From contig NZ_JACCBA010000001.1 of assembly GCF_013409365.1 (NCBI RefSeq), forward strand, positions 7,378,001 through 7,442,000: a stretch of DNA of 64,000 nucleotides, read 5' to 3'. The notes beneath the pieces are model-generated. The model did no database searches and was not told the origin of the DNA. It was given only the letters and a program-made list of their open reading frames with translations. The stretch is from Actinomadura luteofluorescens (GTDB lineage: Bacteria; Actinomycetota; Actinomycetes; Streptosporangiales; Streptosporangiaceae). Made by a program: the position numbers and the translations under genes. Of this stretch, positions 13,269 through 22,100 are shown in pieces. Position 1 is the stretch's first letter; every line of letters begins with the position of its first letter.

Positions 13269-13347
13269 CCGTGGCCGATCTGTAACCGGTTTGCACAAGC
13301 CAGACAATCCGGTCGACACGCCAGCGGCCCTGCGCCAGGCTGCCCGG

Positions 13348-14049
13348 GTGACGAACCCCGACTCCTCCGGCGCGCTCGGCCTCGTCCGCGACCACACGAT
13401 CCTGTCGGTCGTGGTCGGGTCGCGCGCCTACGGGCTGGCCACGGACGACAGCGACGTCGACCGGCGCGGCGTCTACGCGGCCCCGGCCCCCCTGTTCTGG
13501 GGTTTCGCCAAGCCCCCCACCCATCTGGACGGCCCGCTGCCCGAGCAGTTCTCCTGGGAACTGGAGCGCTTCTGCGAGCTCGCGTTGGGCGCGAACCCGA
13601 CGGTCCTCGAATGCCTGTGGTCGCCGCTGGTCGAGCGGGTCACGCCCGTCGGAGAGGAGCTGCTGGCCCTGCGGACGGCGTTCCTGTCCCGGCACGCGCA
13701 CCGCACGTTCCTCCGCTACGCCGAGGCCCAGTTCCGCAAGCTGGACGGTGACTTGCGCAACGGAGGCGCCCCGCGCTGGAAGCACGTCATGCACATGCTG
13801 CGGCTGCTGGAGAGCGGCCTGCACCTCGTCCGGCACGGCGAGCCGCGGATGGAGGTCGGCGACCTGCGCGACCGGCTTCTCGCCGTCCGCCGCGGCGAGG
13901 TCGGCTGGGACGAGGTCGGCGCGTGGCGCGCCTCCCTCGACGCGGCGATCGAGGAGGCCCTGGACCGCAGCCCGCTGCCGCCCGAACCCGACCGCGCCGC
14001 GGTCGAGGAACTGCTGATCTCCGTCCGACGCAGGAGCGTGACCTGGTGA
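13348..14049 (+). CDS. Nucleotidyltransferase-fold protein 1 (RlaP/PF10127-like)
   Basis: Polymerase-beta-type nucleotidyltransferase domain, about 233 aa. The core motif GSRAYGLATDDSDVDRRGVY gives the G-S and D-x-D elements that bind NTP and metal. The rest is helical and similar to predicted RlaP (RNA-repair-associated) proteins. Reading can begin at a TTG at 13291, but the GTG at 13348 gives a compact N-terminus close to the fold. Neither has a strong ribosome-binding site, so a leaderless start is possible. It overlaps the next gene as GTGA. The substrate is unknown. Confidence 0.75.
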   Translation: MTNPDSSGALGLVRDHTILSVVVGSRAYGLATDDSDVDRRGVYAAPAPLFWGFAKPPTHLDGPLPEQFSWELERFCELALGANPTVLECLWSPLVERVTPVGEELLALRTAFLSRHAHRTFLRYAEAQFRKLDGDLRNGGAPRWKHVMHMLRLLESGLHLVRHGEPRMEVGDLRDRLLAVRRGEVGWDEVGAWRASLDAAIEEALDRSPLPPEPDRAAVEELLISVRRRSVTW

Positions 14050-14792
14050 GACTCCCCGAGGGCATGGCCGGCCGCCTCGCCGCCGACCACCCCTATCCCC
14101 GCGCGTTCCTCACCGTCAGCGGCGCGCACCTGTACGGGTTCCCGTCGCGGGACTCCGACGTCGACCTGCGCGGCGTCCACCTGCTGCCGCTGGAGGAGAT
14201 CGTCGGCCTGGAGACGGGGGAGGAGACCGTCACGCTGATGTGGGACCACGCCGGAGTGGAGGCCGACGCGGTCACCCACGACCTGGCCAAGTTCTGCACG
14301 CTGCTCCTGCGGCGCAACGGCTACGTCCTGGAGCAGCTCATGTCGCCGCTGGTCGTGGCCACCTCGCCCGTGCACGCCGAGCTGAAGTCACTCGTCCCCG
14401 GGCTGGTCACCTTCCACCACGCGCACCACTACCTCGGGTTCGCGCGGTCCCAGTGGAAGCTCTTCGAGCGGTCAAGGGAGATCAAACCGCTCCTCTACAC
14501 GTTCCGGGTGCTGCTGACGGGCGTCCACCTGATGCGGACCGGCGAGGTCGAGGCCGACCTGACGCGGCTCGCCGGCGACGGGCCGTCCTACCTGCCGGAC
14601 CTCATCGAGGCGAAGCGGGCGGCCGAGCACGGCGCGCTGCCCGGTGACGCGCCGGACGCGTCCCGCCTCCAGGAGGACATCGCCGCGCTCACGGTCCTTC
14701 TGGAGGCCGAACGCGACCGCAGCGCCCTCCCCGAAGCGCCCGCGAACCGCCGCGCCCTCCACGACTTGGTGGTCCGCGTCCGCCTGGGCTGA
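14046..14792 (+). CDS. Nucleotidyltransferase-fold protein 2, paralogue of the preceding gene
   Basis: About 248 aa, clearly related to its neighbour: SGAHLYGFPSRDSDVDLRGVH aligns with the first protein's active-site motif, and the later QLMSPLV and YTFRVLLTGVHLMRTGE segments match its CLWSPLV and HMLRLLESGLHLVRHGE. Here the serine of the G-S motif is alanine, so catalysis may be weaker or the protein may act as a partner subunit. The GTG start at 14046 overlaps the previous TGA. The tandem, translationally coupled arrangement suggests a heteromer. The role is unknown. Confidence 0.75.
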   Translation: MRLPEGMAGRLAADHPYPRAFLTVSGAHLYGFPSRDSDVDLRGVHLLPLEEIVGLETGEETVTLMWDHAGVEADAVTHDLAKFCTLLLRRNGYVLEQLMSPLVVATSPVHAELKSLVPGLVTFHHAHHYLGFARSQWKLFERSREIKPLLYTFRVLLTGVHLMRTGEVEADLTRLAGDGPSYLPDLIEAKRAAEHGALPGDAPDASRLQEDIAALTVLLEAERDRSALPEAPANRRALHDLVVRVRLG

Positions 14793-14821: not shown

Positions 14822-14887
14822 GGTTGTACGGACCGTTTTGGGACACAACCACCTAAGGCGTTCGCGACGTATCAGGGGTGGTTGTGT
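14822..14887 (+). promoter_or_regulatory. Leader with mutually exclusive inverted repeats before the GTP cyclohydrolase gene
   Basis: ACACAACCACC (14843-14853) and GGTGGTTGTGT (14877-14887) are perfect 11-bp complementary arms around 23 bases, ending three bases before the purine-rich AGGGAAGGGGA ribosome-binding region. An earlier GGTTGT (14822-14827) can pair instead with ACAACC (14845-14850), giving a competing hairpin. This is the geometry of an attenuator or structural switch. It could also be a terminator for the nucleotidyltransferase genes. It matches no riboswitch class I recognise. Confidence 0.55.
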
Positions 14888-14905
14888 AGCCAGGGAAGGG
14901 GAGCG

Positions 14906-15568
14906 ATGGACGAGGGCATCGACCAGAAGGACATCGCGGAGGCGGACCTCAGAACCCGGCGGGGCGTGTTCCGCGCCGTCGCGTTCCGGGACCCGGTCGA
15001 CGGGCACGAGCACATGGCGCTGGTGCGGGGCGAGGTGCGGGGACGCGGCGACGTGCTCGTCCGGATGCACTCCGAGTGCATGACGGGCGACATCTTCGGC
15101 GCGACGCGCTGCGAGTGCGGGGACCAGCTCGGCGCCGCCCTGGACGCCATCGCCCGCGAGGGCGCCGGCGTGCTGGTCTACCTGCGCGGCCACGAGGGCC
15201 GCGGGATCGGGCTGGTGGCCAAGGTCCGGACCCACATCCTGCAGGACGACCAGGGCCTGGACACCGTCGACTCCGCCACGGCCATCGGGCTGCCGGTGGA
15301 CGTCCGCGACTACGGCCCGGCCGCCCGGATCCTGCGGCATCTCGGCGTCCGGTCGGTGCGGCTCATGTCCAACAACCCGGTCAAGGTCAGCGCGCTGGAG
15401 TCCTACGGCGTCTCCGTCGCGGCGCGCGTCCCGCTGCTCGTCCCGGTCAGCGCCGACAACGTCCGCTACCTCACCGCCAAGCGCGACCGGCTCGGCCACG
15501 ACCTCCCGCAGCTCGACGCCCCCGCGGGGCCGCTCGGCGACGCGCCGGTCAGGCAGGCCCGCCGATGA
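14906..15568 (+). CDS. GTP cyclohydrolase II homologue (RibA-like paralogue)
   Basis: Zinc-dependent GTP ring-opening enzyme, 220 aa. Zinc ligands Cys58, Cys69 and Cys71 are in HSECMTGD and RCECG, YLRGHEGRGIGL is the substrate loop, and Arg134 aligns with the catalytic Arg128 of E. coli RibA. At the position of E. coli Tyr105 (KIRAYALQD) this protein has His110 (KVRTHILQD). A change at this tyrosine is what I recall distinguishing the Streptomyces paralogue that stops at the formylated pyrimidine. No other riboflavin genes are nearby, so a dedicated role is likely. The ATG at 14906 follows AAGGGGAGCG, and the stop overlaps the next start (ATGA). Confidence 0.88.
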   Translation: MDEGIDQKDIAEADLRTRRGVFRAVAFRDPVDGHEHMALVRGEVRGRGDVLVRMHSECMTGDIFGATRCECGDQLGAALDAIAREGAGVLVYLRGHEGRGIGLVAKVRTHILQDDQGLDTVDSATAIGLPVDVRDYGPAARILRHLGVRSVRLMSNNPVKVSALESYGVSVAARVPLLVPVSADNVRYLTAKRDRLGHDLPQLDAPAGPLGDAPVRQARR

Positions 15569-16428
15569 CGCGCCCGCTGACGCTCACGCGCCCGGCGCCG
15601 GTACGGCTCCAGGCGCCGCGCCGCCCCCGCCTGACGAGGGGCCCGGAGCTGGCCGCGGCCGTCGCGGCGCAGCTCGCACTGCTGGCGCTGCTCCGTCCCG
15701 GCCACGCGGGCCTGGCCGTGGGCGTCGGGTACGCGCTGGCCTCGTGGGCACTGCTGAGCGCCGCGTTCCGCCGGCGGCGGGCGCTGGGCCCGGCCGACCA
15801 CGTGACGCTGGCGCGGGTGGTGCTCACCGGGGGTGTCGCGGCGCTGGTCGCGGGGCATCTCACCGGTGACGCCCGCGTCTGGCCGCTCGTCGCGGCCGCG
15901 TCGGCGGCCCTCGTCCTGGACGGCGTGGACGGGCGGGTCGCCCGGCGCACCGGGACGGTGTCCAGGCTCGGGGCGCGGTTCGACATGGAGACCGACGCGG
16001 TCCTGGTGCTGGTGCTGAGCGTCGAGGTCGCGCGGTCGGCGGGCCCGTGGGTGCTGGCGATCGGGGCGATGCGGTACGCGTTCGGCGCGGCGGCCTGGGC
16101 GGTCCCGTGGCTGCGCGCGGACCTGCGGCCGAGCATCGCCCGCAAGGCCGTCGCCGTGGTGCAGGGAGTGGCGCTGATCGTCGCGGCGTCGGGCCTCGTC
16201 CCGCATTCGGGCGGGCTCGTGGCGGCGGCGCTGGCGCTGCTGGTGTGGTCGTTCGGACGTGACGTGGCGTGGCTGGCGAAGCGGCGGTACGCGCGGCGCC
16301 GTGGTGCTCTTGTGACGCCTGAGGCCCACGACGCTCAGGTGGCTCGGGCCCAGGAGGCCCAGGGGACTCGGGGGAGGGGCACGGATGGAGCGCGACGCGC
16401 GCGCCTTCTGGATCCGGTCGCCAGGTGA
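15565..16428 (+). CDS. CDP-alcohol phosphatidyltransferase family membrane protein
   Basis: Integral membrane enzyme of 287 aa with the complete CDP-alcohol phosphotransferase signature D-x2-D-G-x2-A-R-x8-G-x3-D-x3-D (DGVDGRVARR...GARFDMETD, about residues 118-143). It transfers a phosphoalcohol from a CDP-activated donor to an alcohol, as in phospholipid headgroup synthesis. The acceptor is unknown. The N-terminal 30 residues are Arg/Pro-rich, followed by several helices, and the C-terminus is a charged soluble tail. Its ATG overlaps the cyclohydrolase stop, and its own end overlaps the dehydrogenase start by 44 bases. Context suggests that the pathway product is lipid-linked. Confidence 0.88.
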   Translation: MTRPLTLTRPAPVRLQAPRRPRLTRGPELAAAVAAQLALLALLRPGHAGLAVGVGYALASWALLSAAFRRRRALGPADHVTLARVVLTGGVAALVAGHLTGDARVWPLVAAASAALVLDGVDGRVARRTGTVSRLGARFDMETDAVLVLVLSVEVARSAGPWVLAIGAMRYAFGAAAWAVPWLRADLRPSIARKAVAVVQGVALIVAASGLVPHSGGLVAAALALLVWSFGRDVAWLAKRRYARRRGALVTPEAHDAQVARAQEAQGTRGRGTDGARRARLLDPVAR

Positions 16429-17356
16429 GGGCGAGATCCGCGATGTCGTCCTGCCCGAGCCGGGGCCGGGGGAGGTGCTCGTCCGGACGCTGTTCTCGGG
16501 CGTGAGCCGCGGCACCGAGGCGATCGTGTTCCGCGGCGGCGTCCCGCCGAACCAGCACGCCATCATGCGGGCGCCGTTCCAGGACGGGGCGTTCCCCGGC
16601 CCGGTCAAGTACGGGTACCTGAACGTCGGCGTGGTCGAGCACGGCCCCGCCGAGCTGGCCGGGCGCACGGTGTTCTGCCTCTACCCGCACCAGACCCGGT
16701 ACGTCGTCCCGGCGAGCGCGGTCAGCGCCGTCCCGGACGGTGTCCCGCCGGAGCGGGCCGTCCTCGCCGGGACGGTGGAGACGGCCGTCAACGCGCTGTG
16801 GGACGCGGCGCCGCTCGTCGGCGACCGCATCGCCGTGGTCGGCGCCGGGATGGTCGGCTGCTCGGTCGCGGGCGTCCTAGCGGGGTTCCCCGGGTGCCGC
16901 GTCCAGCTGGTCGACACCGACCCGTCCCGCGCGGACGTCGCGCGGGCGCTCGGCGTCGGGTTCGCCCATCCCGACCAGGCCGAGGGCGGCTGCGACCTCG
17001 TCGTCCACGCGAGCGCGACCGAGGCCGGGCTCGCCCGGTCGCTGGAGCTGCTCGCGCCGGAGGGCGAGGTGATCGAGCTGAGCTGGTACGGCGACCGGCG
17101 GGTCAGCGTCCCACTGGGGGAGTTCTTCCACTCGCGGCGGCTGACGATCCGGGGCAGCCAGGTCGGCGCCGTCCCGCCGTCCCGCCGGTCGCGCCGCGGC
17201 TTCGCCGACCGGATCGCGCTCGCGCTGCGGCTGCTCGCCGACCCCGCGTTCGGCGAGCTGATCACCGGGGAGAGCCCGTTCGCCGAGCTGCCGCGGCTGA
17301 TGCCGCGCCTCGCGGGCGGGGAGCTGCCCGCCCTGTGCCACCGGATCGCGTACTGA
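16385..17356 (+). CDS. Zinc-type alcohol dehydrogenase-like oxidoreductase
   Basis: Medium-chain dehydrogenase fold, 323 aa. The N-terminal catalytic domain is shortened and lacks the structural-zinc cysteine cluster of ordinary alcohol dehydrogenases; the region SGVSRGTEAIVFRG is typical of bacterial 'zinc-binding dehydrogenase' relatives. The NAD(P)-binding glycine motif is VVGAGMVGCSVAG (about residues 148-160). GGGAGGGG precedes the ATG. It probably oxidises or reduces a pathway intermediate. It is encoded within the GTP-derived cluster, on the same strand as its neighbours. Confidence 0.85.
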   Translation: MERDARAFWIRSPGEGEIRDVVLPEPGPGEVLVRTLFSGVSRGTEAIVFRGGVPPNQHAIMRAPFQDGAFPGPVKYGYLNVGVVEHGPAELAGRTVFCLYPHQTRYVVPASAVSAVPDGVPPERAVLAGTVETAVNALWDAAPLVGDRIAVVGAGMVGCSVAGVLAGFPGCRVQLVDTDPSRADVARALGVGFAHPDQAEGGCDLVVHASATEAGLARSLELLAPEGEVIELSWYGDRRVSVPLGEFFHSRRLTIRGSQVGAVPPSRRSRRGFADRIALALRLLADPAFGELITGESPFAELPRLMPRLAGGELPALCHRIAY

Positions 17357-17398
17357 GGCGGACCGCCCGCCGAGACCGCTCACTGAGGAGGACGTTCG

Positions 17399-17797
17399 TT
17401 GTTCGCCATCACCGTCCGCGACCACGTCATGATCGCGCACAGCTTCCGCGGCGAGGTCTTCGGGCCCGCGCAGCACCTGCACGGCGCGACGTTCGTCGTG
17501 GACGCGACGTTTCGCCGGGCGGACCTGGACCCGGACGGCATCGTCGTCGACATCGGGCTCGCCACCCGCGAGCTGGGCGAGGTCCTGGGCGCGCTGAACT
17601 ACCGCAACCTGGACGACGAGCCCGACTTCGCCGGGGTCAACACCTCGACGGAGTTCCTCGCCAAGGTCGTCGCCGACCGGCTCGCTGACCGGGTGCGCGC
17701 CGGGGCGCTCGGCGCGAACGCCGCCGGGCTGGCCGGCATCACGGTGACGCTGCACGAGTCGCACGTCGCCTGGGCCAGTTACGAGCGCGAGCTGTGA
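17399..17797 (+). CDS. 6-Pyruvoyl-tetrahydropterin synthase homologue with a degenerate active site
   Basis: T-fold protein of 132 aa in the PTPS/QueD family. The pterin-anchoring Glu is kept (Glu120 in TLHESH). His14 and His28 match two zinc ligands, but the third is Ala30 (HGA for HGH). The catalytic Cys-Asp-His set is replaced by Ala24, Asn67 and Tyr68. It can probably bind a pterin- or pyrimidine-like ligand but cannot do standard PTPS chemistry. This resembles S. coelicolor SCO6650, whose structure was reported to lack zinc and the triad. The TTG start has GGAGG seven bases upstream, and the stop overlaps the glycosyltransferase GTG. Confidence 0.85.
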
Positions 17798-18867
17798 CGG
17801 CCCGCGAGGTGTGGATGCTCGTCCCGGGCGGCGTCGACGACCCCGCCGCCCCGAGCGGAGGCAACCGCTACGACCGGCGGCTGTGCGAGGAGTTCGCGGC
17901 GTCCGGGCGTCCCGTCCGGGAACTGGCGGTGCCCGGCGCGTGGCCGCGGCCGGACGAGGCCGCCCGCGCCGGGCTGGGGCGCGCGCTCGCCGCGCTGCCC
18001 GACGGGTCCGTCGTCCTGATGGACGGGCTGGTGGCCTGCGGCGTCCCGGACGTCGTCGTCCCGGAGGCGGGGCGGCTGCGGCTCGCCGTCCTCGTCCACC
18101 TCCCGCTGGCGGACGAACCCGGACAGGCTGACCTGAACGCGGGCGAACGCGAGGTACTGGAGGCGGCCGGGGCCGTCGTCGCGACCAGCCCGTGGGCCCG
18201 GGACCACCTGATCGCCCACCACGGCCTGGAGCCGTCCCGCGTCCACGCCGTCGCCCCGGGCACCGATCCCGCGCCGCTCGCGTCCGGCACCGACGGGGCG
18301 GCGGGCCTGCTGTGCGTGGCGTCGGTGACCCCGCGCAAGGGGCACGACGTCCTCATCGAGGCGCTCGCCAACGTCGCGCACCTGGCGTGGGACTGCGAAT
18401 GCGTCGGGCCGCTGGGCGGCGACGCCGAACACGTCGCGCGGGTGCGCCGGCTGATCGGCGGGCACCGCCTCGACGGGCGCGTCGCGCTGACGGGGCCGCT
18501 GGCCGGCAAGCGGCTGGACGACGCCTACGCCGGCGCCGACCTGCTCGTCCTGGCGTCCCGCGCGGAGACGTTCGGGATGGTCGTGACCGAGGCGCTGGCA
18601 CGCGGCATCCCGGTGCTCGCGACCTCGGTGGACGGGGTCCCGGACACGCTGGGCTGGGATCCGTCGGGGAGCGTCCCGGGCATGCTCGTCCCGCCGGACG
18701 ACCCCGTCGCGCTGGGCGCGGCGCTGCGCCGCTGGCTCGTCGAACCGGAGTTGCGCGAACGGCTGCGCGCCTCCGCCCGGCTGCGGCGCGGCGCGCTGCC
18801 CGGCTGGGACGACACAGCCCGCCGCATGGGAACCGTCTTGTCGAAGCTGCGAAGGGAGGCGCCGTGA
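17794..18867 (+). CDS. GT4-type glycosyltransferase
   Basis: GT-B fold glycosyltransferase of 357 aa. The N-terminal acceptor domain starts with [13 protein letters not shown]. The C-terminal donor domain has [20 protein letters not shown] and the E-x7-E-type stretch [20 protein letters not shown] that binds the nucleotide-sugar. Sugar donor and acceptor are unknown; context suggests glycosylation of the GTP-derived intermediate or of a lipid carrier. The GTG at 17794 overlaps the upstream TGA, and its own TGA overlaps the methyltransferase GTG. Confidence 0.9.
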
Positions 18868-19691
18868 CCGGGGTCGAGGCGCGGGGAGGCGCTGTGACGG
18901 GGTTCGATCCGACCTGGCTGGAACTGCGCGAAGGCGCGGACGCGACGGCGCGCGCCGCGGAACTGCTCGACCCGCTCCGCGCCGCGCTCCCGCCCGGCGG
19001 GCCGCTGGTCATCTGGGACCTCGGGTGCGGCACCGGCTCCCAGGGGCGCTGGCTGGCGGGACGGCTTCGCGGCCCGCAGCACTGGATCCTGCATGACAGC
19101 GATCCGCGCCTGCTCGACCGCGCCCGCGCGAGCACCTACACCACCGCCGACGGGACGCCCGCGACGGTCGAGACGCGCGCCGGCGGCATCGGCGCGCTCC
19201 GTGCGTCCGACCTGGTGGGCGCGTCGCTCGTCACCGCGTCCGCGCTGCTGGACGTGCTCACCGCCGCCGAGGTCGAGGCGATCGCCGCCGCGGCGGACTG
19301 CCCGGCGCTGCTCACCCTCTCGGTCGTCGGGCGCGTCCGGCTCTCCCCGTCCGAGCCGCTCGACGCCGAGTTCGCCGCCGCCTTCGACGCCCACCAGCGG
19401 CGCGGCGGGCTTCTCGGGCCGGGCGCCGTCGCCGCCGCGACCCGGGCGTTCGGCCGCCGCGGCGCGTCCGTCCAGGCGCGCCCGAGCCCGTGGCGGCTCG
19501 GCCCCGGCCAGGCCGCGCTGACCGCCGAGTGGCTGCGCGGCTGGGTCGCCGCCGCCGTCGAGCAGCGACCGGACCTGGCGCCCTTCGCCGAGGACTACCT
19601 CGGCCGCCGCCTCACCGAATGCGCCGCCGGGCGCCTCACCGCCGAGGTCCACCACGTCGACCTGCTCGTCCTCCCCGGGAGCGCCTCGTGA
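18864..19691 (+). CDS. SAM-dependent class I methyltransferase
   Basis: About 275 aa. The SAM-binding glycine loop is VIWDLGCGTGSQGRWLAG (about residues 47-64), with an acidic motif further on in WILHDSDPRLL. The C-terminal half is less conserved and probably sets the substrate. There are two equally good starts: GTG at 18864 (overlapping the previous stop, GGGAGG upstream) and GTG at 18894 (GGGGAGG upstream), produced by a local duplication of the start region. I give the longer form. It is coupled by GTGA to the next gene. Confidence 0.85.
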   Translation: MTGVEARGGAVTGFDPTWLELREGADATARAAELLDPLRAALPPGGPLVIWDLGCGTGSQGRWLAGRLRGPQHWILHDSDPRLLDRARASTYTTADGTPATVETRAGGIGALRASDLVGASLVTASALLDVLTAAEVEAIAAAADCPALLTLSVVGRVRLSPSEPLDAEFAAAFDAHQRRGGLLGPGAVAAATRAFGRRGASVQARPSPWRLGPGQAALTAEWLRGWVAAAVEQRPDLAPFAEDYLGRRLTECAAGRLTAEVHHVDLLVLPGSAS

Positions 19692-20617
19692 CGAAGTACC
19701 TGCCCTGGCTGCGCCTCCTCGTCGGGCTGGGCATCCTCACCGCGCTGCTGTGGTGGCACAGCACGGACGCGTTCGTGGACGCGCTCCACGCCGTGGACGC
19801 CGGGGCCGTGGCCGTCGCGCTCCTCCTGGGCCTGCTGACCACCGTGCTCAGCGCGGCCCGCTGGTGGCTGGTCGCGAGGCGGCTCGGCCTGAGCCTTCCG
19901 CTCGGCGGGGCCGTCGCGGACTACTACCGGTCCCAGTTCCTCAACGCCGTGCTGCCCGCGGGGGTGCTCGGGGACGTCCACCGCGCGGTGAGCCACGGGC
20001 ACCGGTCGGGCGACGTCGCCCGCGGCGTGCGGGCCGTGTTCCTCGAACGCGTCGCGGGCCAGGGAGTCGCGATCGTCGCGGGCGCCGCCGCGCTGCTCGC
20101 CCACCCCGCGCTGGTGTCGGCGATGGCGCCCGCGCTGGTCCCGGCGGCGGGCGTCCTGGTGCTGGTGCTGGTCCTCGCCCGGTGGCGGCGCCGGTCGCTG
20201 GCGCCGGCGTTCGCGGACGTGCGCGCCGCCCTGCGCGCCTGGCCGGCGATCGTGGGGCTGTCGGCCGCGGCGCTGGCGGGGCACCTGGCCCTGTTCGTGG
20301 TCGCCGCCCGCCTCGTCGGCGCGACGGCCCCGCTGCTCACCCTCCTGCCGCTGCTCCTGCTGGCGCTCCTGGTGATGGTGCTGCCGGTGAACGTCGGCGG
20401 CTGGGGCCCGCGCGAGGCCGTCCTCGCCCTGGCGTTCGGCGCGGCCGGGCTCGGCTCAGCGCAGGGCCTGACCGTCTCCGTCGTGTACGGGGTGCTCACC
20501 TTCATCGCGGCCCTGCCGGGCGCGGCGGCCCTGCTGCTGAAGCACCGCGAGGACGTCCCCGAACGACTCGACGAAGCTCCGCAGCGTCTCCCGGCCCTTG
20601 CCGGCGCTGGCCAGTGA
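19688..20617 (+). CDS. UPF0104 / lysylphosphatidylglycerol-synthase-like membrane protein
   Basis: Polytopic membrane protein, 309 aa, with about eight hydrophobic segments beginning LRLLVGLGILTALLW. The family hallmarks are the conserved QFLNAVLPAGVLGDVHRA and the late VLPVNVGGWGPREAVLA. Relatives include the flippase-like domain of MprF and AglD-type proteins that handle lipid-linked sugars. Here it may move or act on a glycolipid made by the upstream glycosyltransferase and phosphotransferase. The last 162 bases overlap the 3' end of the convergent creatininase gene, so the C-terminal tail (after LLLKHRED) is poorly constrained. Confidence 0.82.
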   Translation: MTKYLPWLRLLVGLGILTALLWWHSTDAFVDALHAVDAGAVAVALLLGLLTTVLSAARWWLVARRLGLSLPLGGAVADYYRSQFLNAVLPAGVLGDVHRAVSHGHRSGDVARGVRAVFLERVAGQGVAIVAGAAALLAHPALVSAMAPALVPAAGVLVLVLVLARWRRRSLAPAFADVRAALRAWPAIVGLSAAALAGHLALFVVAARLVGATAPLLTLLPLLLLALLVMVLPVNVGGWGPREAVLALAFGAAGLGSAQGLTVSVVYGVLTFIAALPGAAALLLKHREDVPERLDEAPQRLPALAGAGQ

Positions 20618-21217
20618 CGGCCGCCCGACGACACCGGAGGTCGTGTAGGCCGCCATTCCCGTCGTCAGGAGGTGCCGCCTTTCGTCGGCCAGGTGGTCGG
20701 CGGTCTGGTACCCGTCCCGCACCAGCTCCGGGTGGGCGTACAGCAGGATGGAGGTCTCCAGCTCCCCGGCGTGCATGTCGCTGACGGCGGGAGTCTCGGC
20801 GCCGGCCGCCCTCTCCGCCGCCTCCCAGTGCTCCAGCGCGGGGAACAGGGCCATGTCGCCGCGCGCCTCCTGGACGACGTTGCCGAGCACGTAGTTGCCC
20901 CCGTGCCCGTTGACCAGCACGAGCTTGGGGACGCCCGCCCGGCGCAGCGACTCGGCGACGTCCCTGACCACCGCGTACAGGGTCGCCGCCGAGATGCTCA
21001 CCGTCCCGGGCCAGTCGGCGTGCTCATGCGAGCACGAGATCGTCACTGGCGGGAGCGTCCGCACCGGGTACGCCTTCGCGATCTCCGCCGCGATCGTGCA
21101 CGCGATCACCGTGTCCGTCGCGAGCGGGAGGAACGGGCCGTGCTGCTCGTGGCTCCCGATCGGCAGGACCGCCACGGGGACGTCCGGGACCTCGGGACTC
21201 GTGTGCGTCGGCAGCAT
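20456..21217 (-). CDS. Creatininase-family amidohydrolase
   Basis: Metal-dependent hydrolase of 253 aa. Metal ligands are visible in IGSHEQHGPFLPLATDT, VNGHGGN and DMHAGELETS. The family includes creatininase, MftE-type peptidases and the archaeal FAPy deformylase ArfB. Next to a GTP cyclohydrolase homologue predicted to yield a formylated pyrimidine, an ArfB-like deformylase role is attractive but is inference. It is transcribed towards the cluster. Its start lies 194 bases inside the upstream PAP2 gene in another frame, and its end overlaps UPF0104 by 162 bases. The N-terminus from VAVLPIGS onward is essential to the fold, so a much later start is unlikely. Confidence 0.85.
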   Translation of the reverse strand: MLPTHTSPEVPDVPVAVLPIGSHEQHGPFLPLATDTVIACTIAAEIAKAYPVRTLPPVTISCSHEHADWPGTVSISAATLYAVVRDVAESLRRAGVPKLVLVNGHGGNYVLGNVVQEARGDMALFPALEHWEAAERAAGAETPAVSDMHAGELETSILLYAHPELVRDGYQTADHLADERRHLLTTGMAAYTTSGVVGRPSLASAGKGRETLRSFVESFGDVLAVLQQQGRRARQGRDEGEHPVHDGDGQALR

Positions 21218-21941
21218 GATTCACAGCTTGCCGCATCCGCCCGGCCAGGGAAACCAGCGCCATGGCGCCGGCCAGCAGGAGCGCGGCGACGATCCCGTCC
21301 GTCCAGTAGTGGTTGGCCGTCACGACCACCACGAGGACCGTGAGCGGCGCGTGCAGCGCGACGACCCACCGCCACCGGCTCCGCGACACCCGCACCACCG
21401 CCACGGCCACCAGGATCGCCCACCCGATGTGCAGCGACGGCATGGCCGCGTACTGGTTGGCGATCCCGTCCGCCGCCGCCGGATAGGCCGACGGGCCCAC
21501 CGTCAGCATCGTGTCCACGGCCCCGATCCCCGCCAGGCGGGGCGGCGCCAGCGGGAACATCGTGTGCACCACGAGCCCGGCCGCCGTCAGCGCCACCAAT
21601 TCGTTCCGCACCCGCGCATAGGACGACCTGTGCCGCACGTAGAGCCAGATCAGCAGCAATGCCGTTCCGGGGAAATGGACGCTCACGTAATAGATATTGG
21701 CGAGGAGCGCCGCGTGGTCCCAACCGAGCGCCCAATGCTGGAATCCGACCTCGCTCGGCAGCCATTCCCGCTCGAACCCCCACAGGAGGTGCGCGTTCGC
21801 CATCGCCTGCCCGGGGCCCTGCTCGATCAGCGTCCGGCCCCACTTGTAGAAGGCGAACAGGACCGCCAGCAGCCCCATTTCGGTGAGCAGCGGCCTCAAC
21901 CGGCCGCGCACCGCCCCGCCCACTGCCGCTCCGCCCACCAT
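21024..21941 (-). CDS. PAP2-superfamily membrane phosphatase/transferase (AUR1-like)
   Basis: Polytopic protein of about 305 aa. The PAP2 active-site elements are PSLHIGW and ANHYWTDG; the early NIYYVSVHFPG and the missing classic KX6RP motif place it with the inositolphosphotransferase-like subgroup. The start is the ATG at 21941 with GGGAGG just upstream; the reading to 22067 lacks a ribosome-binding site. No stop occurs until 21024, so the Arg/Pro-rich last ~65 residues come from reading into the creatininase gene in another frame. It may dephosphorylate or transfer a headgroup related to the neighbouring pathway. Confidence 0.82.
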   Translation of the reverse strand: MVGGAAVGGAVRGRLRPLLTEMGLLAVLFAFYKWGRTLIEQGPGQAMANAHLLWGFEREWLPSEVGFQHWALGWDHAALLANIYYVSVHFPGTALLLIWLYVRHRSSYARVRNELVALTAAGLVVHTMFPLAPPRLAGIGAVDTMLTVGPSAYPAAADGIANQYAAMPSLHIGWAILVAVAVVRVSRSRWRWVVALHAPLTVLVVVVTANHYWTDGIVAALLLAGAMALVSLAGRMRQAVNHAADAHESRGPGRPRGGPADREPRAARPVPPARDGHGDRVHDRGGDREGVPGADAPASDDLVLA

Positions 21942-22100
21942 CGTGCCTCCCAGCCCGGTCGTCCCCGTCCAATGACAACCCTCGCGTCTGACATTTCCGG
22001 AGACACTGGGTTCAGCTACCCGATCATGGGAGGTAAAACCCACCCCAGGTGGTGGGGTTGACTCCACCCCCTGACGTGGATTCCGGCCCGGCGGCGCCGG

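Follow-up and report, generated by a model that had tools for sequence, protein, structure and literature searches.

Gene content and organisation

The DNA analysed here (the window) is a 64,000-nt stretch of the single-contig, 9.6-Mb genome of Actinomadura luteofluorescens (NZ_JACCBA010000001.1, positions 7,378,001–7,442,000). It carries a cluster of eight genes (Table 1), which starts with a homologue of GTP cyclohydrolase II (GCH II) and ends with an oppositely oriented gene for a creatininase-superfamily hydrolase. Between these lie genes for a PTPS-fold protein, a dehydrogenase, a glycosyltransferase, a methyltransferase-like protein and two membrane proteins. The closest named relative at this locus is Actinomadura mexicana (L035), with GCH II and PTPS proteins 96% identical to those of the window. 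The original prediction, made from the letters of the window alone, had described seven plus-strand genes overlapping end to start, apart from one gap, and facing a convergent creatininase gene. Open reading frames (ORFs) and family matches confirm this gene set, although its first gene begins at 14906 instead of 14822. Five of the six plus-strand junctions overlap (by 4, 44, 4, 4 and 4 nt) and a 42-nt gap precedes the PTPS gene. Family assignment is weak for the dehydrogenase and methyltransferase, both of which score below the Pfam cut-off, and in the former the usual zinc ligands seem by eye to be absent.

The creatininase and flippase-like genes (19688–21217) overlap convergently by 162 nt. 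Overlaps of 84–244 nt are present in 58 of 68 loci with such an opposite-strand pair, while in the other 10 the two ORFs are 443–733 nt apart, with a divergent RibD_C gene in between in all four spaced pairs inspected (L047, L052, L071, L109). The convergent overlap is thus a conserved habit of the cluster.

Table 1 Genes of the window cluster and one fused relative from another locus
Feature	Position	Strand	Evidence
GCH II homologue, His110 at the Tyr switch position	14906..15568	+	PF00925 212.8 bits (cut-off 23.3); aligned to E. coli 2BZ0
CDP-alcohol phosphatidyltransferase-type membrane enzyme	15565..16428	+	PF01066 47.3 bits (cut-off 22)
BchC-like MDR dehydrogenase	16385..17356	+	BchC model 47.6 bits (cut-off 291); PF00107 28.5 bits (cut-off 31.8)
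PTPS-fold protein without catalytic triad, SCO6650 orthologue, TTG start	17399..17797	+	PF01242 82 bits; 3D7J E 1.9e-70
GT4-family glycosyltransferase	17794..18867	+	PF00534 90.3 bits; PDB matches including MshA-type enzymes
Class I methyltransferase-like protein, start 18864 or 18894	18864..19691	+	PF13649 25.2 bits (cut-off 27); 24-row alignment
LPG_synthase_TM / flippase-like membrane protein	19688..20617	+	PF03706 108.4 bits; TIGR00374 45.9 bits (cut-off 43.2)
Creatininase-superfamily hydrolase, proposed FAPy deformylase	20456..21217	-	PF02633 211.1 bits
CDP-OH–sulfatase/LtaS-like fusion (example)	L118:13888-16215	-	single ORF

Co-inheritance and distribution

Related loci were collected in a single scan with the window PTPS protein, the best 80 of at least 460 confirmed relatives forming set A; some of these stop at contig ends. 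Partner families were identified by tblastn up to 9 kb from the PTPS gene. Dehydrogenase and GT4 genes were found in all 80 loci, followed by CDP-OH (79), methyltransferase (78), flippase-like (75), GCH II (69) and creatininase (65) genes. Twenty further regions, most of which also carry the seven partner families near PTPS, were added to give a 100-locus set in which the GCH II switch residue (see below), creatininase and RibD_C were counted; all-against-all ORF clustering covered 41 of these 100 loci. The commonest arrangement (51/80 set-A loci) has an order and strands unlike those in Actinomadura, and the genes have therefore remained linked despite rearrangement.

Among 197 evenly sampled genomes of the class, PTPS matches and dehydrogenase matches (E 1e-40) were each found in 30 genomes, the same 30 when the lists were compared by eye. 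PTPS is present in 22 of 121 sampled Streptomycetaceae genomes, marking the cluster as an accessory trait with well-conserved proteins. The eight genes are a co-inherited set, beyond what chance would give. A genome-wide neighbourhood search had been proposed earlier as a check of the idea of one shared pathway; the partner families do co-occur (in 65–80 of the 80 loci), and the idea is supported by this pattern. Scattered homologues without linkage are excluded by the set-A co-occurrence and the identical distribution of PTPS and dehydrogenase over 30 genomes. On balance, a single conserved, patchily distributed actinobacterial biosynthetic pathway, with the GTP-opening front end described below and a decorated product, is the somewhat favoured explanation of the cluster.

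The GCH II switch residue and the creatininase homologue

The window GCH II homologue retains the family domain (212.8 bits), but the Tyr found at the switch position of the E. coli enzyme (2BZ0) is replaced by His110. SCO6655 of Streptomyces coelicolor, which we take to be a GCH II that forms the formylated pyrimidine FAPy, reportedly has Met here and makes FAPy rather than the diaminopyrimidine APy, while exchange of Met for Tyr is said to confer APy formation (work attributed to Spoonamore and others, Biochemistry 2006). The switch residue and these reported assays fit well with a cluster GCH II that would stop at FAPy.

Creatininase genes were found in 69 of the 100 loci, all of which hold a GCH II gene, in every case with a residue other than Tyr at the switch. 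Counting the window (n=70), these residues are Met (50), His (17), Cys, Leu and Gln (one each). GCH II without creatininase is present in 14 loci, 13 with Tyr and one with Ser (L082), and the remaining 17 have neither gene, partly through contig ends. In L082 (12791–14515, + strand; Pseudonocardia bannensis) GCH II is fused to RibD_C; the RibD_C half seems intact, but the GCH II half appears degraded, with an altered metal motif and Ser at the switch. Across 14 genomes surveyed, 19 of 23 GCH II genes encode Tyr at the switch and the four that do not all lie in creatininase-bearing clusters. Such a pairing would be predicted if GCH II without the Tyr failed to release the formyl group and the creatininase homologue removed it.

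A tree of core proteins (35 rows, alignment as concatenated) included 22 of the 70 non-Tyr rows and 13 of the 14 GCH II loci lacking creatininase; L121 and loci without GCH II were left out. In this tree the switch state changes twice, each time together with creatininase. L082 was grouped as Tyr in the GCH II and core trees, which stand as first built, though its switch residue is Ser; its Tyr-bearing sister L081 is unmoved, and the two contrasts are therefore taken to stand. A 50-row core tree realigned by program gave eight label changes, and the 35-row tree on the concatenated alignment was preferred.

In the creatininase alignment (14 rows) E24, H26, D35, H105 and E154 are invariant, the first four being metal-site residues. 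The window protein thus combines superfamily membership (PF02633, Table 1) with the residues expected of a FAPy deformylase of this type. BrbF of Sinorhizobium, annotated as a creatininase, is described in PMC9478397 as a FAPy formamidase that removes formate from FAPy. With this precedent and the gene pattern, deformylation of FAPy by the cluster creatininase homologue fits well as its predicted function. The suggestion that the creatininase gene is unrelated to the rest of the cluster was rejected, given the 69/69 pairing with non-Tyr GCH II.

Several observations weigh against this assignment. The window creatininase homologue does not pass the ArfB equivalog model NF033501 (41.1 vs 180 bits) and scores nearer to MftE, whose model TIGR03964 is also not passed (132.7 vs 172 bits). 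The window GCH II passes the ordinary ribA model TIGR00505 (209.7 vs 205.85 bits). Non-Tyr GCH II proteins form one clade (92/87). The two independent contrasts both go in the expected direction but are not enough to reach significance, and a core tree in which the non-Tyr loci form a single clade is not rejected (p-AU 0.234). At E 1e-30 creatininase relatives are found in 18 of the 197 class genomes. The cluster is present in 14 of these and missing from four (G055, G012, G085, G017), and G173 has a second copy outside the cluster. No GCH II was found in the fetched regions around six such outside copies (L178–L183), and genomes with these relatives have other GCH II genes of the Tyr type. 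Being apart from GCH II, these copies must have another function or draw on a different substrate source, a warning against naming one function for the whole creatininase subfamily. Finally, no RibD_C was found in the 64-kb window at E 1e-8, and the front ends described below may therefore not all give the same compound. The original prediction had proposed conversion of GTP to a formylated pyrimidine and deformylation by the creatininase homologue, as by archaeal ArfB; the two putative steps are supported by the gene pattern (69/69) and BrbF, but NCBIfam places the creatininase homologue closer to MftE than to ArfB, and the GCH II homologue does pass the ribA model. The prediction is supported in part, its later steps (modification and attachment to a sugar or lipid) being more conjectural.

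By eye, a helix-turn-helix-type gene adjoins three of the six outside creatininase copies, and the contig begins at that point in the other three.

The PTPS-fold protein

The window protein belongs to the PTPS fold family (PF01242). SCO6650 (3D7J) is the only PDB entry that it matches at E ≤0.001, and the two are orthologous by sequence and by cluster; the original prediction had named SCO6650 as a similar Streptomyces gene. Nine of the 11 other rows in a 12-row alignment are 70–84% identical to it. Ala is found at positions 24 and 30 and mostly Asn-Tyr at 67–68 (Asn67 and Tyr68 in the window), while His28 and Glu120 are invariant in all 12 rows. In active enzymes these positions are occupied by the catalytic Cys (24), the third zinc His (30) and Asp-His (67–68). 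Neither the catalytic Cys/Asp/His set nor the full set of three zinc His is therefore present. The earlier description as a dead PTPS fold is borne out by this alignment and, judged by sequence, is correct for the classical reaction; conservation of the protein and retention of Glu120 argue that it still does something.

Other front ends and deeper relatives

All 14 loci with GCH II but no creatininase carry RibD_C, as separate proteins at least 50% identical to that of L118 in 11 and fused to GCH II in three (L081, L082, L121). The best NCBIfam match for the L118 and L125 RibD_C proteins is the archaeal APy reductase model TIGR01508 (133.8 and 128.1 bits, below the cut-off of 186.45). A divergent RibD_C gene is also present in 10 of the 69 creatininase loci. 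In G189 neither GCH II nor creatininase accompanies the cluster core, and the one GCH II in this genome is of the Tyr type, as if an ordinary GCH II could feed the cluster. These variants point to APy as the likely shared entry compound.

A PTPS-family profile matched 97 of 296 genomes of the phylum, and 20 regions were fetched. In all six regions of family f50 (L184–L189), RibD_C, dehydrogenase, PTPS, GT4 and a further methyltransferase occur together, adjoined by FolB and acyltransferase genes; this FolB is the only copy in six of the seven f50 genomes searched and may simply be the folate gene. The f50 PTPS proteins keep HGH, and the Cys and Asp-His pair are absent. Dehydrogenase, GT4 and RibD_C were also found in five other regions (L190, L191, L196, L202, L203); in four of these a Tyr-type GCH II is present and creatininase gave no match. 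L201 covers only a short stretch of a Micromonospora-type cluster. No such core was found in the other eight regions (L192–L195, L197–L200), six of which show in alignment, fully or over the part covered, the Cys, HGH and Asp-His that mark ordinary PTPS/QueD. An old core thus seems to consist of RibD_C, dehydrogenase, triad-less PTPS and GT4, with CDP-OH and flippase genes belonging to it only in relatives of the window.

Membrane-associated genes

The motif DxxDGxxAR-x8-GxxxDxxxD of CDP-alcohol enzymes was recognised by eye in the product of 15565..16428, which also has weak PDB matches to PssA (E 0.004). Searches by tblastn detected a sulfatase-type protein, which we read as LtaS-like, in 18 of the 100 loci. 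In 10 of them (L117–L120, L122–L124, L126–L128) it is fused with the CDP-OH protein in one ORF of 755–844 residues. The separate L112 protein passes PF00884 (31 bits, cut-off 25), whereas the fused L118 protein and the L052 protein do not. As read from sequence, the fusion links the putative pathway to the envelope without pointing to a substrate.

Proposed pathway and alternatives

In the proposed pathway the GCH II homologue would open GTP and stop at FAPy, as its switch residue and the reported SCO6655 assays suggest, and the creatininase homologue would strip formate to give APy, in line with the gene pattern and BrbF. The triad-less PTPS protein may then bind the 2-amino-4-oxo ring and, with the dehydrogenase, remodel the ring or the ribose-derived side chain. 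Decoration by GT4 and the methyltransferase could follow, after which the CDP-alcohol transferase and flippase-like protein might link the product to a lipid and transfer it across the membrane. That the cluster encodes one pathway including the first two steps (GTP to FAPy to APy) is probable. A pterin-like glycoside is a tentative guess at the product, somewhat short of even, and lipid attachment is doubtful. Lower still we place the fullest version, a membrane phospholipid whose pterin (or 2-amino-4-oxopyrimidine) group is glycosylated and methylated, made by a split cyclohydrolase/deformylase, a repurposed PTPS, CDP-alcohol attachment and flipping, with hand-over to the envelope by the sulfatase/LtaS-like domain in Micromonospora-type loci; this is unlikely as a whole. 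We know of no lipid with a pterin or 2-amino-4-oxopyrimidine headgroup.

Alternatively, the product of the GTP-derived part could be soluble, a cofactor or signal of pterin or pyrimidine type, and nothing derived from GTP would be placed on a lipid; CDP-OH and flippase-like proteins would then serve some unrelated lipid or glycan of the envelope. This explanation is favoured by the deeper core found in other families (RibD_C, dehydrogenase, PTPS, GT4), which has no CDP-OH or flippase matches, although CDP-OH and flippase-like genes persist in 79 and 75 of the 80 set-A loci despite rearrangement; we regard it as a serious contender, if not quite an even one. Use of FAPy as such, with the creatininase homologue acting late as a peptidase or amidase, would agree with the best NCBIfam match (the peptidase MftE, below cut-off) and with the close relatives found away from GCH II. 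It is nevertheless unlikely in view of the strict 69/69 pairing with non-Tyr GCH II and the absence of creatininase wherever the local GCH II keeps Tyr (13/13).

The ribA match, already noted, would also suit a second riboflavin supply, in which GCH II and creatininase feed flavin synthesis, as proposed for BrbF, and the other genes are concerned with flavin secretion or are mere neighbours. BrbF serves riboflavin (PMC9478397), and a KEGG-based table assigns SCO6655 to riboflavin metabolism (PMC2853524). This explanation is very improbable: NCBIfam and Pfam scans recognised no other riboflavin family among the eight genes, PTPS and dehydrogenase are present in 80/80 set-A loci compared with 69/80 for GCH II, and the genome has a separate GCH II gene, elsewhere, that encodes Tyr at the switch. 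With His110 and this second gene, the window GCH II is neither of the Tyr type nor the only one in its genome, and a role as ordinary RibA only was rejected on this second gene, even though the ribA model is passed.

Relation to known systems

The cluster, with its proposed two-step front end from GTP through FAPy to APy, has a close counterpart in the SCO6650–SCO6655 region of S. coelicolor, where the PTPS proteins are orthologous and gene order and strands differ from those of the window. The link to SCO6655, also named in the original prediction, is supported through S. tendae, whose PTPS matches SCO6650 in 131 of 132 residues and lies in one cluster with GCH II; this strain holds the same eight families, and its GCH II switch residue is Met, compared with His in the window. 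The archaeal ArfA-ArfB-ArfC entry to riboflavin and F420 follows the same scheme of FAPy deformylation (by ArfB), and an ArfC-like RibD_C occurs in Micromonospora-type loci, but in the window cluster a GCH II homologue, not GCH III, would open GTP, and the ArfB and ArfC models are not passed. Synthesis of pterin glycosides likewise combines a PTPS fold with a GT4-type glycosyltransferase. The cyanobacterial biopterin glucosyltransferase route uses GCH I and an active PTPS, neither of which was recognised among the window cluster proteins in NCBIfam and Pfam scans. BrbF shares the creatininase annotation of the window protein and differs in its riboflavin role; its authors describe the FAPy-forming partner as still undiscovered (PMC9478397).

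No named product for this cluster or its Streptomyces counterparts was found in searches of an open-access collection of papers, and the FAPy passages of PMC7288161 add nothing on the cluster. In a solid-culture transcriptome table (PMC3610822) SCO6652, the methyltransferase if numbering follows gene order, has values of 0.8, 4.3 and 4.1. PMC2853524 tabulates SCO6655 with genes that anticorrelate with predicted flux, the majority of them rising in stationary phase.

The cluster gives a testable role to SCO6655 and SCO6650, so far studied in isolation, and points to a metabolite of many actinobacteria. The predicted bacterial FAPy-forming cyclohydrolase adjoining its own deformylase would be the type of partner sought for bacteria with BrbF, albeit in another lineage (PMC9478397). 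Natural front-end variants provide ready-made controls.

Flanking sequences

A perfect 9-bp dyad lies 5′ of the GCH II gene (14845–14853, ACAACCACC; 14877–14885, GGTGGTTGT) and is also perfect in A. mexicana. As a regulatory element it was rejected, being imperfect or absent by eye in most other aligned Actinomadura rows. A known RNA element was likewise discarded, the search of Rfam at E up to 1 giving a single match far under the gathering score. Just upstream of the cluster is an RlaP-family nucleotidyltransferase-like gene (13291–14049, + strand; PF10127), a family found in 11 of 80 set-A loci, and an adjoining ORF ending at 14792 (+ strand) resembles it by look. On the other side, a PAP2-family membrane phosphatase gene (21219–22067, - strand; PF14378; 10/80 set-A loci) lies directly next to the upstream end of the creatininase gene, on the same strand, and its open frame extends into that gene, to 21024.

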